64,000 nucleotides of DNA, from NCBI GenBank assembly GCA_944324915.1, contig CALUYD010000002.1:124001-188000 (forward strand), written 5' to 3'. Numbering within the stretch: position 1 is the first letter of the stretch; each line of letters opens with the position of its first letter. The notes under the pieces were generated by a model that had not been told where the DNA came from, did not search any database, and saw only the letters and a list, made by a program, of their open reading frames with translations. A program made the position numbers and the translations under genes. Positions 51,338-59,116 of the stretch are shown here, in pieces. The DNA is from Candidatus Gastranaerophilales bacterium. GTDB lineage: Bacteria > Cyanobacteriota > Vampirovibrionia > Gastranaerophilales > Gastranaerophilaceae.

Positions 51338-52285
51338 ATGTTATATGATACGCATTATAAAGAAGCTAAAAAAGTAACTTTTAAAAAATATGATTTAAAT
51401 ATATCAGGGCTTTTGTTTTTGCCTTCCGGTTTTGATGAAAATAAAAAATATCCCGCAATCGTTATAACGCACCCTGGTGGCGGTGTTAAAGAACAATGTT
51501 CTTCTTTATATGGCTGGAATTTAGCTCAAAATGGTTTTATTGCTTTAGCTTTTGATGCTTCCTATCAAGGTGAAAGTGATGGAATTCCAAGATGTCTTGA
51601 AGATCCGACCTCACGAGTTGAAGATATACGCTCAGCAGTTGATTATTTAACAACGCTTGATTTTGTTGATGAAGATAAAATCGGAGCAATGGGAGTGTGT
51701 GCCGGTGGCGGATATACTATGAATGCCATTCAAACTGATTTAAGAATAAAAGCAGCAGCAGGAATCAGCACTTGGGATGTTGGAGATAGTGCTAAAAATG
51801 GTTTCCCCGGTGTGAATGAAGAAAATTTCTTGCAAAATTTATTAACTGAAGTTGCAAAAGCGCGAACTGCACAAGCAAAAGGAGAAGAACCTAAATATTG
51901 GAAATATGTTCCTGAAACAGAAGAAGAAATTAAAAATGCCCCTTCTGTTATAGCAAAAGAAGCAAGCGAATATTATAGAACGCAGCGTTGCTTTTATCCT
52001 ACAACAACAAATAGGTATCTTGTTTCAAGCAATGATAAACTTGCGGCGTGGGATGCTTTTTGTCATATTGATACAGTTTCTCCAAGACCAATTTTGTTAA
52101 TTGTAGGAAGTAAGGCTGATACGTTATATTATAGCGAAGATTGTTACAAAAAAGCGCTTGAGCCTAAAGAAATTTTTACAATACAAAATGCAACTCATGT
52201 TGATTTATACGATAAACCTCAATTTGTTAATCAGGTTGTAGAAAAATTGGTTTCATATTTTAAAAAATATCTTTTAGGAGAGTAA
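51338..52285 (+). CDS. dienelactone-hydrolase-like alpha/beta hydrolase, cytoplasmic paralogue
   Basis: A 315-residue alpha/beta hydrolase with Cys as predicted nucleophile in GAMGVCAGGGYTMN (near residue 125), as in dienelactone hydrolases. The acid is probably Asp in LIVGSKADTLYY and the His is in NATHVDLYD. No signal peptide is present. The substrate is probably an ester or lactone. The following gene is a secreted paralogue; the pair arose by tandem duplication. Confidence 0.88.
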   Translation: MLYDTHYKEAKKVTFKKYDLNISGLLFLPSGFDENKKYPAIVITHPGGGVKEQCSSLYGWNLAQNGFIALAFDASYQGESDGIPRCLEDPTSRVEDIRSAVDYLTTLDFVDEDKIGAMGVCAGGGYTMNAIQTDLRIKAAAGISTWDVGDSAKNGFPGVNEENFLQNLLTEVAKARTAQAKGEEPKYWKYVPETEEEIKNAPSVIAKEASEYYRTQRCFYPTTTNRYLVSSNDKLAAWDAFCHIDTVSPRPILLIVGSKADTLYYSEDCYKKALEPKEIFTIQNATHVDLYDKPQFVNQVVEKLVSYFKKYLLGE

Positions 52286-52287
52286 AA

Positions 52288-53322
52288 ATGTTTAACAAGA
52301 TTTTGAAATTATTTTTTATTGGAGTATTTGTTATGGGTTTAGCTGATATTGCAGAAGCAAATGTAATAAAAAAATGGGATAAGGTTTTTGAAAAATCCGA
52401 TAATGTTATAGTAAAAAAAGTTAAATTTAATAATAGATTTGGAATAACTTTGGTTGGTGATTTATACATTCCAAAAGCAATGAAGCCAAATGAAAAATTA
52501 CCTGCTATTGCAATTTCTGGACCTTTTGGAGCAGTTAAAGAGCAAGCCTCCGGTCTTTATGCTCAAACACTAGCGCAACATGGTTTTATAACATTGGCAT
52601 TTGATCCAAGTTTTACAGGTGAAAGCAAGGGAGAACCCAGAAATGTTGCTAGTCCTGATATAAATACAGAGGATTTTTCTGCTGCTGTTGATTTTTTAAG
52701 TAATTATAAAAATGTAGATTCAGATAAAATTGGCATATTAGGAATTTGCGGTTTTGGCGGATTTGCCCTTAATGCTGCTGCTATTGATACAAGAATTAAA
52801 GCAACAGTAACATCAACAATGTATGATATGACTAGAGTTAGCGCTTACGGTTACAATGATTCTATGGATAAAAATGAAAGATTTGAATTAAAAAAACAGT
52901 TGAATAATCAAAGAACTATTGATTTTAAAGAAAAAAAATATGCAAAAGCAAGCGGTTTGCCTGAAAAATTAACAGGCAAAGAACCTCAATTTGTGGCGGA
53001 TTATTGGGGATATTATAAAACGCAAAGAGGCTTTCATTCTCGCTCTATAAATTCTAATGGAAATTGGAATTTAACTTCTTCATTATCATTGATTAATCAA
53101 CCTATATTGAATTATGCAGATGAAATTGATACTCCTGTTTTGATGATACATGGCAAAAATGCTCATAGCAGATATTTTTCAGAAGATGCTTATAAAAAAT
53201 TAAAAGGTGAAAATAAAGAACTTTTAATAATCGAAGATGCTAATCATGTAGATTTGTACGATAATTTGGAAAAAATTCCTTTTGATAAAATTGAAGCGTT
53301 TTTTAGTAAAAATTTAAAATAG
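52288..53322 (+). CDS. alpha/beta hydrolase, secreted paralogue
   Basis: A 344-residue paralogue of the preceding gene with an added signal peptide (ILKLFFIGVFVMGLADIAEA, cleavage after AEA). The nucleophile elbow is GILGICGFGGFALN with Cys; His is in DANHVDLYD. Where the first paralogue has GSKAD, this one has GKNAHSRY, so the usual acidic residue appears replaced by His. It may act in the periplasm with a shifted or absent catalytic acid. It starts 2 nt after its paralogue with AGGAG. Confidence 0.86.
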   Translation: MFNKILKLFFIGVFVMGLADIAEANVIKKWDKVFEKSDNVIVKKVKFNNRFGITLVGDLYIPKAMKPNEKLPAIAISGPFGAVKEQASGLYAQTLAQHGFITLAFDPSFTGESKGEPRNVASPDINTEDFSAAVDFLSNYKNVDSDKIGILGICGFGGFALNAAAIDTRIKATVTSTMYDMTRVSAYGYNDSMDKNERFELKKQLNNQRTIDFKEKKYAKASGLPEKLTGKEPQFVADYWGYYKTQRGFHSRSINSNGNWNLTSSLSLINQPILNYADEIDTPVLMIHGKNAHSRYFSEDAYKKLKGENKELLIIEDANHVDLYDNLEKIPFDKIEAFFSKNLK

Positions 53323-54998: not shown

Positions 54999-55325
54999 TT
55001 AATCATCTGCTTCAGGAAGTTTGTTTTCCATCGGACCATTAGGCATTTTACCTTCTTTAAAATGTTTTTTCATCATTTTTTTGTGACATGGACAATCGCA
55101 ATTATGTTTTTTAAAGTGGTGTCCACCCATCATATGATGATAATATCCTTTGTGCATCATAGGCATCATTGGTATCATAGGCGGTTTGTGTAGTGCTGCA
55201 AATAGACTTATTGCGCAAAAACCACCAACAAAAGTACCAAGTGCAACAGTTAAGAATTTTTTAAAACATTTACTTTTGCAAAAGCATTGTTGTTCTTCTT
55301 GTGTTATTTTAGTTTCCTCTGACAT
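54999..55325 (-). CDS. small membrane protein with Met/His/Cys-rich tail
   Basis: A 108-residue protein: a polar Cys-containing N-terminus (QQCFCKSKCFKK), one transmembrane helix (FLTVALGTFVGGFCAISLFAA), then a tail dense in potential metal ligands (PMIPMMPMMHKGYYHHMMGG, HHFKKHNCDCPCHKKMMKKH). Binding or sensing of copper or another soft metal is inferred. The frame extends to 55355, but ATG 55325 has AAAGGAG and is preferred. No metal transporter is adjacent. Confidence 0.8.
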   Translation of the reverse strand: MSEETKITQEEQQCFCKSKCFKKFLTVALGTFVGGFCAISLFAALHKPPMIPMMPMMHKGYYHHMMGGHHFKKHNCDCPCHKKMMKKHFKEGKMPNGPMENKLPEADD

Positions 55326-55429
55326 AAAATTCTCCTTTATCAATCGTGTACACAAATTAAAACGAAATAAATTTTCTAAAGTTCATTTTTTATATTACAA
55401 CTTTTAAAATTAAAATTTTATTATCCTAT

Positions 55430-56917
55430 TTAGCTATTTATTAAATCTTCTAAATCTTCAAATTTATTTAAAATGCGCTTTGCGCCGGCATGTTTAAAAT
55501 TATTAACCATTTTATTATAATCACTATTAGCTGGAATTATTGCTATGGTTTCAATATTTGCCATATTTCCCGTAATTACATCATTAAAACTCGAGCATAT
55601 GTATTTAATATCTTTATGGGGGCAATTTTCAATTATTTTAATTGCTTCTTTTGGATTTGGTTTAAAACTTTTATCTGATGAATTTTGAGGAGTGATATAA
55701 CGATAGAAAAACTTATCAATATCAAAGTCTACAAGTATATTTTTAATATCTTCTTTGCTTTTTTCGCTAAAAATTACAAAGTCATATTTTTTAGATAGGT
55801 TTTCTAATGTTCTTTTAAAAGATATGTTTTCATTTTTATTATTGGTTAATATTTCATCTATTCCAAAAATTAAAATATCTTTTTTATTGAATAATTCTGC
55901 CATATATTTAACTCCCCCAACAGTTGGGATTGTTATTCTAAGATAAGATTTTATTGGGGAGTTTTTGGGGAAGTTTTTTGTAATTACTCCATATTTTTTT
56001 AATTTTTCAAAGTAAAAATCGCTATAATTTTCAAAATCGCAAAGAATGAAATTCGCTTCACTTAAATAAGGTTTAAACCCTTTTTCGCTAAGCATTTGTA
56101 TTAATAATTCTTTTGCTTTGTGGTTCAATTCTTTTATTTCATCTATTCTTTTTGTGTCGTTTAAAATACTTAATGCACAATGAAGTGCAATAATATTGAC
56201 GCTATAAGGAATAATAACTTTTTTTAAATTTTCTATTATGGAGCTATTGGCGATTACAACACCAAATCTTATTCCTGCTATTGCATAATCACAAGAACAT
56301 GATTTTACTATAACAACATTTTCATATTTTTTTGTTAATTCAATGTAATCTTCAAAAGTTGCGCAATATGAGAAATTAATATAGCTGCAATCGATTACAA
56401 AAAGAATATCTTTATATTTATTTAAAAAATTTTCTATTGCTGATGCTTTTGTAAGTTCTCCTGTTATATCGTTTGGAGTTGAAATGAAAATAATTTTTGT
56501 ATTTTGAGAAATATTTTTCTCTAAAATTTCTTTATTGAAATTACAACTTATATATTTAATTTGTGCATTATTTATTTTTGTGTAATTTTCAAGCGTAGAG
56601 AAAAATAATCCGGATGATAAAATTTCTTCATTTTTTTCTAAATAACTTGTTATTATTGCGCTATGTGCTTCATTAGCGCCATTTGTAAAAATAATATTAT
56701 TTTTATCGATATTATATTTTTCGCAAAATTTATTTTTTAATTTTTCGTATGTTGGATATAGTGATATCTCTTGAGCTGAAATGTTTCTAATTGTGCTTAA
56801 TATATTATTGGCACATCCATAAATATTTTCGTTTAAATCAAGTTTTAGTCGCCAACTTTGATTGTTTTCAGTATTATTTGGGGAAATATTTTCAAGAGCT
56901 TTTTTAGGTTTAATCAT
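55430..56917 (-). CDS. HisC-like aminotransferase fused to HAD-like domain, both active sites altered
   Basis: A 495-residue fusion. Residues ~1-345 match class I/II aminotransferases nearest histidinol-phosphate aminotransferase (LDLNENIYG, FTNGANEAH, ISTPNDITGE, VIDCSYINF, AGIRFG). In the PLP motif SCSCDYAIAGIRFG, Cys209 (56291-56293) replaces the Schiff-base lysine of SxSK. Residues ~346-495 resemble HAD phosphatases, but motif I reads IFGIDEILT with Gly352 (55862-55864) replacing the nucleophilic Asp; Asp354 remains. The frame is intact and conserved in style, so it is not a simple pseudogene. The ATG follows TATAAT by 7 nt without a Shine-Dalgarno. A regulatory or binding role is inferred. 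Confidence 0.82.
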   Translation of the reverse strand: MIKPKKALENISPNNTENNQSWRLKLDLNENIYGCANNILSTIRNISAQEISLYPTYEKLKNKFCEKYNIDKNNIIFTNGANEAHSAIITSYLEKNEEILSSGLFFSTLENYTKINNAQIKYISCNFNKEILEKNISQNTKIIFISTPNDITGELTKASAIENFLNKYKDILFVIDCSYINFSYCATFEDYIELTKKYENVVIVKSCSCDYAIAGIRFGVVIANSSIIENLKKVIIPYSVNIIALHCALSILNDTKRIDEIKELNHKAKELLIQMLSEKGFKPYLSEANFILCDFENYSDFYFEKLKKYGVITKNFPKNSPIKSYLRITIPTVGGVKYMAELFNKKDILIFGIDEILTNNKNENISFKRTLENLSKKYDFVIFSEKSKEDIKNILVDFDIDKFFYRYITPQNSSDKSFKPNPKEAIKIIENCPHKDIKYICSSFNDVITGNMANIETIAIIPANSDYNKMVNNFKHAGAKRILNKFEDLEDLINS

Positions 56918-56953: not shown

Positions 56954-57754
56954 TCAGCGCCTTGCATATTGGTATTTTTCTTTTACTTCAATTCTTAAGT
57001 TAGCGAGTTCTATATCGTCATAATCGACATAACTTGTTTGAAATAAATTTCTTCCTGTTTTTATAACGAGCTCGTTTGTGTCTTTTAAAATGCTTTTTGG
57101 AATAACAATTTCAATGTTATCGCCGTTTAATTCAAGATTAGCAATTTTATGACCATTAACAAAAACTTCACTTGGGGATGAATATACTTTTGCAATTCTA
57201 TTTTGACCGTTTTGTTTTGCTTTTTTAGTATCAAGCCCTATTATTGTACCAATTTTTACAATTACTTCTTCTTTGTTTGTATATTGGGGTCTTTTAAATG
57301 TTTTAGATAAAAAATGTCCGTTTGCGTTTGAGCGAAATTCGTATGAGTTTGCTGAATTATCGCTATACATATTATCTCCCAAATGAATTACTCCTTGAGA
57401 AATCTGCATATCAAAAGGACTTGCTTGCTCAATCCCAAGTTTTAGGGGCGAGTTAAATACACTATTGTCAACCGTAAGAGAAAATATCTTATATCCGTCT
57501 TTTTCAACAAACATAATGGCTTTATCGCTTATATCGGCATTTAATTTAAAGTTGCCATTATTATCTGAAAATGTTGTATAGTTTATTTCCGGTATTGAAA
57601 TTTTAACACCCGACAGAGGCTCGTTCGTTTTTGAATCTATGATTTTATTGCCGTAATTTAAGTCGTTGTGGTCAATTTTTCCTGATATTACGTCTGCATA
57701 AGATATGCTTGATAAAAATATTATATAAATTAAAACAGATATTATTTTTTTCAT
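56954..57754 (-). CDS. secreted protein with carboxypeptidase-regulatory-like domain
   Basis: A 266-residue protein with a signal peptide (ISVLIYIIFLSSISYA). Residues ~30-100 form a CarboxypepD_reg-like beta-sandwich (IIDSKTNEPLSGVKISIPE, FSDNNGNFKLN, VEKDGYKIFSL). The C-terminal ~150 residues are beta-rich (VKIGTIIGLDTKKA, VFVNGHKIANLELNGDNIEI) and may be a carbohydrate- or surface-binding domain. GAGG is the ribosome-binding site. Function is unknown. Confidence 0.75.
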   Translation of the reverse strand: MKKIISVLIYIIFLSSISYADVISGKIDHNDLNYGNKIIDSKTNEPLSGVKISIPEINYTTFSDNNGNFKLNADISDKAIMFVEKDGYKIFSLTVDNSVFNSPLKLGIEQASPFDMQISQGVIHLGDNMYSDNSANSYEFRSNANGHFLSKTFKRPQYTNKEEVIVKIGTIIGLDTKKAKQNGQNRIAKVYSSPSEVFVNGHKIANLELNGDNIEIVIPKSILKDTNELVIKTGRNLFQTSYVDYDDIELANLRIEVKEKYQYARR

Positions 57755-57893: not shown

Positions 57894-58466
57894 CTATCTC
57901 TCTTGAGAAACAGGTACAATAATTTCTTGACCTATTCTTATTGCTGCAGGATTTGTAATGTTGTTAATTCTTTGCATTTCTAGGATTTTAGCTTCATCAT
58001 ATTTGCCATAAAATCTGTATGCAATGCCGTTTAGTGTGTCGCCTTTTTTAACAATGTATTTTTCATTTGTTACAACAGGTTCACTTGGAGCGTCAACAAC
58101 ATTTTCAGTTCCTATAACTGCAACATTTGAAGATGTTTCAATTTCATTAGACACTTTTGGGTGCATAGAAAAAATTGAAACAATTAATGTAATTAGACAC
58201 ATAAACAATACGCCGGCTACAAAGCCAATGGTTAAATATGTAGCAGGAGATTTTTGTTTAGTTGTTTTTGCAACATTGTGTACTTTTTGAATACCTTTTT
58301 GAACATTTCCCCATAAAATATCCAATTCTTGAGCTTTTGCAGCTCTGTAATATTGGTTTAGTTGGGATTTTGTGCTTTGTTTTTTTAAGTCTGTTTGAGA
58401 AATGTTTGCTAAAACTCCCATTTTCTCACGTGTAAGACCTGATCTGTGTAGTGTTGAACCTTTCAT
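57894..58466 (-). CDS. membrane-anchored LysM protein
   Basis: A 190-residue protein: a cytoplasmic basic N-terminus of ~75 residues (MKGSTLHRSGLTREKMG...), one transmembrane helix (LTIGFVAGVLFMCLITLIVS, ~78-98), a short linker, and a C-terminal LysM domain (YIVKKGDTLNGIAYRFYG ... IRIGQEIIVPV), which binds peptidoglycan. No hydrolase domain is present, so a wall tether or division/envelope scaffold is likely. AAAGGTGAC precedes the ATG. Confidence 0.9.
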   Translation of the reverse strand: MKGSTLHRSGLTREKMGVLANISQTDLKKQSTKSQLNQYYRAAKAQELDILWGNVQKGIQKVHNVAKTTKQKSPATYLTIGFVAGVLFMCLITLIVSIFSMHPKVSNEIETSSNVAVIGTENVVDAPSEPVVTNEKYIVKKGDTLNGIAYRFYGKYDEAKILEMQRINNITNPAAIRIGQEIIVPVSQER

Positions 58467-58552: not shown

Positions 58553-59116
58553 TTAATTATTTTTAATGGTTGCTGAATTTGCGCAATCAAACATTGCATC
58601 CAGCAGTTTTTTGTTTTTTTCTATGTTAAATCCGCCCTCTTTCAAATATTCAATCATTCTTGATTTCCATAGATTAAATAGCTCCTCATTTGTCATATTA
58701 AGGGCATCAGCTACTTTTTTAAGCTCGCAAAAGTCTATTTGTATTGGTTTTGCGCCTCTTAGAATATCTACAAGTTCAAGTCTTTTTTTTCTTTCAAAAA
58801 GTTTTAAAAAATCAAGAGTTGAATAGCCGTTAAATTTAATCAAATCTTTCAAGAGTAAAAGATTTTCACTAAAAGTTATATTTTCTGAGGGTATTTGATA
58901 TTCCATAAAATCTTCAGGATTTATATCCATTACTGTTGCAATGCGCTCAAGAGTTATAGAGCGTGTAGAAAATGGTATATTTTCATCAATAAGATTGTAA
59001 ACATAAGATAGTGTAACGCCTATCATTTGCGCAAATTCTTTTTTATGAAGATTATTTTTTTCTAAAAAATCCGCTACCATCTTCGAACTTTTTATATTAG
59101 TATCTTGCATTTTCAT
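58553..59116 (-). CDS. two-domain XRE-type regulator
   Basis: A 187-residue protein with two helix-turn-helix-like regions: a clear Cro/C1 fold at ~12-65 (VADFLEKNNLHKKEFAQMIGVTLSYVYNLID split, ITLERIATVMDI) and a second, weaker one at ~90-150 (ELVDILRGAKPIQIDFCEL, LKKVADALNMTNEELF). A DNA-binding regulator of unknown target. The ATG lies 8 nt after TAAAAT; an alternative ATG is two codons downstream. Confidence 0.75.
   Translation of the reverse strand: MKMQDTNIKSSKMVADFLEKNNLHKKEFAQMIGVTLSYVYNLIDENIPFSTRSITLERIATVMDINPEDFMEYQIPSENITFSENLLLLKDLIKFNGYSTLDFLKLFERKKRLELVDILRGAKPIQIDFCELKKVADALNMTNEELFNLWKSRMIEYLKEGGFNIEKNKKLLDAMFDCANSATIKNN

Follow-up and report, generated by a model that had tools for sequence, protein, structure and literature searches.

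What would a bacterium that seems no longer to make histidine do with a protein of histidine synthesis, once the catalytic residues of both its domains are gone? The window analysed here, a 64,000-nucleotide stretch from a member of the gut order Candidatus Gastranaerophilales, poses this question through a single reverse-strand gene, whose product joins a HisC-like aminotransferase domain to a HAD domain (Table 1). The window genome is denoted G000, and the other genomes of its genus carry further G numbers.

Table 1. Features at and around the fusion gene, in window positions
Feature	Position	Strand	Basis or remark
HisC-HAD fusion gene, putative pseudoenzyme, 495 aa	55430..56917	-	Pfam Aminotran_1_2, weak HAD_2; TIGR01141
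HisC-like aminotransferase domain, residues 1-342	55892..56917	-	AF2, Foldseek, VIA
Cys209 codon TGT, PLP-lysine position	56291..56293	-	alignment
HAD remnant (Rossmann core, cap absent), residues 343-495	55433..55891	-	HAD_2, AF2, Foldseek
Gly352 codon GGA, HAD nucleophile position	55862..55864	-	alignment
In-frame HAD cap deletion, approximate site	55828..55852	-	alignment; ~90 aa present there in G008 and most relatives
CarboxypepD_reg-like protein, 266 aa, conserved upstream neighbour and control gene	56954..57754	-	36 bp before fusion gene
LysM protein, member of conserved gene row	57894..58466	-	neighbourhood comparison
Cro/C1-type HTH protein, member of conserved gene row	58553..59116	-	neighbourhood comparison
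Small Cys/His/Met-rich protein, downstream	54999..55355	-	separated from the fusion gene by hisB in his+ relatives

The frame runs its full length with no internal stop, as the preliminary description stated. Against Pfam the protein matches Aminotran_1_2 (E 2e-33) and, weakly, HAD_2; hisC (TIGR01141) is the best match for residues 1-342, and its score of 203.4 bits is short of the equivalog cut-off of 276.55, which an intact relative from the order also misses slightly (269.7 bits). The AF2 model of the aminotransferase domain (mean pLDDT 89.6) matches 3get/3hdo in Foldseek (TMt 0.87) and superposes on 3get_A in VIA with a Z of 40.6 and 1.9 A across 341 residues, so that its predicted structure is that of a fold type I HisC. 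Scanned by itself, the HAD remnant reaches 27.4 bits against HAD_2; it is modelled with a pLDDT of 88, and its Foldseek matches are HAD cores (top 2w11, E 8e-7), in keeping with the Rossmann-like core of a HAD-IA phosphatase.

The likeness to HisC (TIGR01141; PDB 3get, 1fg3, 8bj1) covers the full-domain fold, the PLP-ring Asp and the substrate Arg. The last two had been described as retained, and Asp176 and Arg327 are indeed identical in all 29 aligned homologues, as is Tyr179. Unlike HisC, however, the window protein has no PLP Schiff-base lysine, scores below the family cut-off and has no histidine pathway around it. Its motif reads KSCSCD (Lys205-Ser-Cys-Ser-Cys209-Asp210) where relatives have KS(F/L/M/Y)SKD with an AAA or AAG lysine codon. 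HAD motif I is LIFGIDE, with Gly352 where the LIFDMDG of relatives has an Asp encoded by GAT or GAC. Both substitutions had been noticed at the outset and hold in the alignments. Three further lesions had been overlooked: motif II has FSEK in place of FSGR, motif IV has ICSSFND in place of LGDSIDD, and the cap between motifs I and II is missing (495 vs ~587 aa). HAD subfamily IA family TIGR01548 is thus resembled in the Rossmann core and in its fusion to HisC in the intact order relative, whereas the nucleophile Asp, motif II, the motif IV acids and the cap have been lost.

The form from which this protein descends can be read from the rest of the order. There the intact fusion is about 570-600 aa long with SxSK and DxD present, and nearly all loci long enough to show it have hisB as the next gene downstream. 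These loci, which were collected by an alignment-based scan and come largely from the same species as the genus set, repeat the genus pattern, and the intact form reaches other genera. Because it adjoins hisB order-wide and keeps both active sites, the intact fusion is predicted to be a histidinol-phosphate aminotransferase/phosphatase. The phosphatase half is assigned from context, the closest family to the HAD part of an intact order relative being TIGR01548 at 119.5 bits, under its 140.2 cut-off. Histidinol-phosphate phosphatases have been reviewed as HAD, PHP and IMPase types, with the bifunctional HAD type fused to hisB, not hisC (PMC5516325); the fusion of HisC to a TIGR01548-like HAD domain beside hisB across the order (L124-L177) would be a predicted arrangement absent from that review. 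A literature search of partial coverage found no report on this protein or on histidine loss in Gastranaerophilales.

Within the genus, loss of catalytic residues goes with loss of pathway genes. The G000 genome (1.8 Mb) is 99.98% complete, and hisG, hisB (IGP dehydratase), hisD (histidinol dehydrogenase) and hisF were not found in it or in 13 of the 27 other genus genomes searched, in searches where control genomes matched as expected. All four genes are missing from one identical set of 14 genomes (his-; the remainder are his+). In 12 of these 14 the fusion gene persists, its frame open over 492-589 aa. It has been cleanly deleted at the syntenic site in G007; its absence from G020 is uninformative since a neighbour gene is also missing from that assembly, which is 93% complete. 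The HAD nucleophile is replaced in all 12 his- proteins (Asn in eight, Gly in two, Ser and Glu in one each), and the PLP lysine in seven (Cys in G000 and G026; Ile in G001, G008 and G013; Ser in G012 and G014), five keeping it. PLP-phosphate loops are gone in several his- members. By contrast, 12 of 13 his+ members (all but G005) keep the HAD Asp (Fisher 2.7e-6) and all 13 keep the PLP Lys (vs 5 of 12, Fisher 1.6e-3), both p values ignoring shared ancestry; when independent pairs on the tree were tested, they were too few to reach significance. Decay of the HAD domain can come before loss of the pathway, because the his+ G011, with its motif I Asp in place, has already lost the cap and other motifs. 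The cap has been deleted in frame, with differing end points, in five species (L002, L004, L010, L026 and the window; 492-506 aa), and in several lineages the core that is left is still predicted to be foldable.

How many times did this happen? The his label changes at least four times on the fusion protein tree and at least seven times on the rpoB tree, while strongly supported branches by themselves force one or two changes; cap deletion requires at least four changes on either tree. One genus member, G006, has a compact and different-looking his operon, possibly acquired (L243; G006:C9:32000-39100), with the order HisG, HisIE, HisD, HisNB-like, HisA, HisF, HisC. It looks complete and encodes a separate HisC of 357 aa as well as a HisNB-like protein; the native-type HisA-HisI-HisE fusion is absent from this genome, and the HisC-HAD fusion is kept with partly degraded motifs.

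Around the gene little has changed. In most his- members the row (Pth, HTH, LysM, the 266-aa protein and the small downstream protein) is unaltered and only hisB is missing. The small protein is membrane-like, conserved in the genus and possibly metal-binding. The gene had been called promoter-driven, a claim that finds no support: promoter-like sites are no more frequent than in shuffles, at 27 vs 27.9. It is probably part of an operon, because 36 bp separate it from the ORF before it.

Is a gene in this state simply on its way out? Branch omega was estimated from sister pairs with a lysine loss in common (the outgroup for G001/G013 being G003, in which Lys is present), so most of their divergence is later than that loss. 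In the aminotransferase domain it is 0.077 for G001/G013, 0.087 for G012/G014, which also share the loss of a PLP-phosphate loop, and 0.038 for G000/G008, against 0.032 and 0.044 in his+ controls, all values being approximate because synonymous sites are saturated. Omega = 1 is rejected for the Lys-less pairs (2dlnL 158-234). In the HAD domain the corresponding values are 0.039, 0.21 and 0.083, vs 0.006-0.023 in controls, and dN relative to the adjacent 266-aa gene is about 3.5-9x in his- pairs vs about 1-2.7x in his+ pairs. Constraint in his- lineages is about twice relaxed, yet strong purifying selection is clearly present. The dN/dS comparison proposed in the preliminary description therefore comes out in its favour, post-loss omega in the aminotransferase domain being 0.04-0.09. 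Neither frame decay nor neutral evolution, the marks of a pseudogene, is seen in the window gene; what is seen, catalytic residues lost and the protein kept by selection, is the pattern of a pseudoenzyme.

Given the observed loss of pathway genes and catalytic residues, and the purifying selection that followed, the window protein is probably a selected double pseudoenzyme with a non-catalytic role, derived from a bifunctional histidine enzyme, its loss of activity being judged by residues. The relaxed constraint, the G007 deletion, the saturated dS and the mere one or two his changes on strong branches count against this reading. Slow decay, in which a useless relic of the pathway is leaving the genome and happens to be still unbroken, would account for the first two of these, for the great length of the G026, G017 and G015 branches and for the repeated cap deletions. 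It is nonetheless unlikely: frames are intact between his- sisters at saturated synonymous divergence, where omega is 0.02-0.09 (0.21 in one HAD pair), and in neutral simulation stops already average about 8 at 0.1 substitutions/site and reach 36-38 at 1.0.

A second possibility is that the proteins are still enzymes, the Lys-retaining his- members acting as another aminotransferase (e.g., an aromatic one) and the Lys-less ones using Cys209 or a migrated lysine. Lys209 is indeed present in five his- members, the Lys-less ones conserve Lys205 and further lysines, and neither Asp176 nor Tyr179 varies. However, the residue at 209 is otherwise Cys, Ile or Ser, the sister species does not share the Cys, several members have lost PLP-phosphate loops and the HAD nucleophile is gone in every his- protein, all of which make continued catalysis improbable as well. 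A replacement lysine specific to Lys-less proteins was sought, and the aminotransferase domain offers only Lys314, which substitutes an Arg. Position 314 is Arg in nearly all his+ proteins and Lys in most his- ones (6 of the 7 Lys-less proteins), and is always basic; by eye it lies opposite a substrate-phosphate arginine of HisC (M. tuberculosis HspAT, PMC4703992). Also invariant in 29 of 29 homologues are Lys25-Leu26, Asn29-Glu30, Ser286, Asn289-Phe290 and others. Among positions conserved in his+ proteins, those of the PLP/substrate pocket, as defined by motif rather than by coordinates, have gone more often than the others in Lys-less proteins (on average 0.59 kept, vs 0.77 elsewhere; p 0.011). 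The pattern of conserved residues is compatible with a retained anion-binding pocket, and structural reasons could also explain the conservation.

The frame might instead be kept for the operon's sake, through translational coupling or transcript stability, as its closeness to the upstream gene within a conserved row could suggest; this is very improbable, since it is the protein sequence that is constrained and not the frame alone, and G012 and G015 keep the gene elsewhere, off the row. An assembly error or recent local mutation, for which no supporting point was found, can practically be dismissed: the same-lineage homologues with Lys and Asp that the preliminary description would have taken as a sign of such an event do exist, as his+ relatives, but the losses recur in parallel at the same sites in separate assemblies of other species. 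These parallel losses, with purifying selection after the loss of lysine, argue against both local error and neutral decay.

What, then, would a selected double pseudoenzyme be doing? By descent it would be the bifunctional histidinol-phosphate aminotransferase/phosphatase of a bacterium that has probably stopped making histidine. Within the genus the pathway appears to have gone several times, taking hisG, hisB, hisD and hisF with it and leaving the fusion protein; the phosphatase site, and in many species including that of the window the PLP lysine, would then have decayed, while purifying selection preserved the HisC fold and the HAD core along with a number of residues. The protein is most likely a HisC-type dimer, and one guess is that a partner or small anionic ligand occupies the old substrate pocket (Asp176, Tyr179, Arg327 and basic 314). 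Its job would be regulatory or scaffolding. The preliminary description had taken both domains as catalytically dead and the gene as selected for something else, and to that extent, by residues, it stands. Its histidinol-phosphate-like ligand is unlikely, because without hisG, hisB, hisD and hisF the compound would not be made. A new chemistry at Cys209 is also unlikely because this residue is not conserved: the sister species has Ile there, and other relatives without the lysine have Ile or Ser.

Since the protein was kept after separate losses, a non-catalytic role probably existed before the pathway went, and the active enzyme may already have been moonlighting. That this holds generally, the active HisC-HAD having had a second job and usually being kept at each pathway loss as its sites decayed, possibly in parallel with the HisA-HisI-HisE fusion in seven his- species, is an idea to which we give slightly less than an even chance. 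Non-enzymatic homologues of PLP enzymes with binding or regulatory roles are known, namely LCB1 of serine palmitoyltransferase and the ODC antizyme inhibitors (PMC2748086). The window protein resembles them as a PLP-enzyme homologue that is apparently not itself active, but their partner is an active paralogue, whereas here the sole copy seems to have become inactive alongside pathway loss; a search of the G000 genome found no second HisC-like gene. Pseudoenzymes in general lack catalytic motifs and have allosteric, scaffolding or competitive roles (PMC10211241); unlike the usual case, two fused domains here appear to have lost catalysis repeatedly, in step with the disappearance of a biosynthetic pathway. 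If this is correct, whole-pathway loss went hand in hand with a bifunctional enzyme turning into a double pseudoenzyme under selection, seemingly on more than one occasion and with intact sisters for comparison, a repeated natural experiment separating catalysis from moonlighting. Intact, half-dead and fully dead proteins would form a ready set for finding the hidden function of a core enzyme, and a hisC annotation in these gut bacteria would not imply histidine synthesis.

A HisA-HisI-HisE fusion lies 1.3 kb past the window end (G000:C2:189316-190545; L042:4317-5546). Seven his- genomes, which have neither trpC nor trpF, keep it with 76-91% identity to the copy in G000. The HisA active-site Asp motifs persist; by contrast, the zinc motif of HisI has disappeared from G000 and G008, and the other copies have a changed WTKGETSG motif. 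Retention of its HisA part as a TrpF/PriA enzyme was considered and rejected: of 24 genus genomes searched, 23 have no trpF, and trpC scores above its cut-off only in G022, so the fusion was not kept for a role in tryptophan synthesis. The fusion is apparently a second relic of the pathway under selection. Elsewhere in the window (51338-53322), two adjoining and related alpha/beta-hydrolase-like genes, probably a tandem duplication, follow a flavodoxin-like reductase gene.
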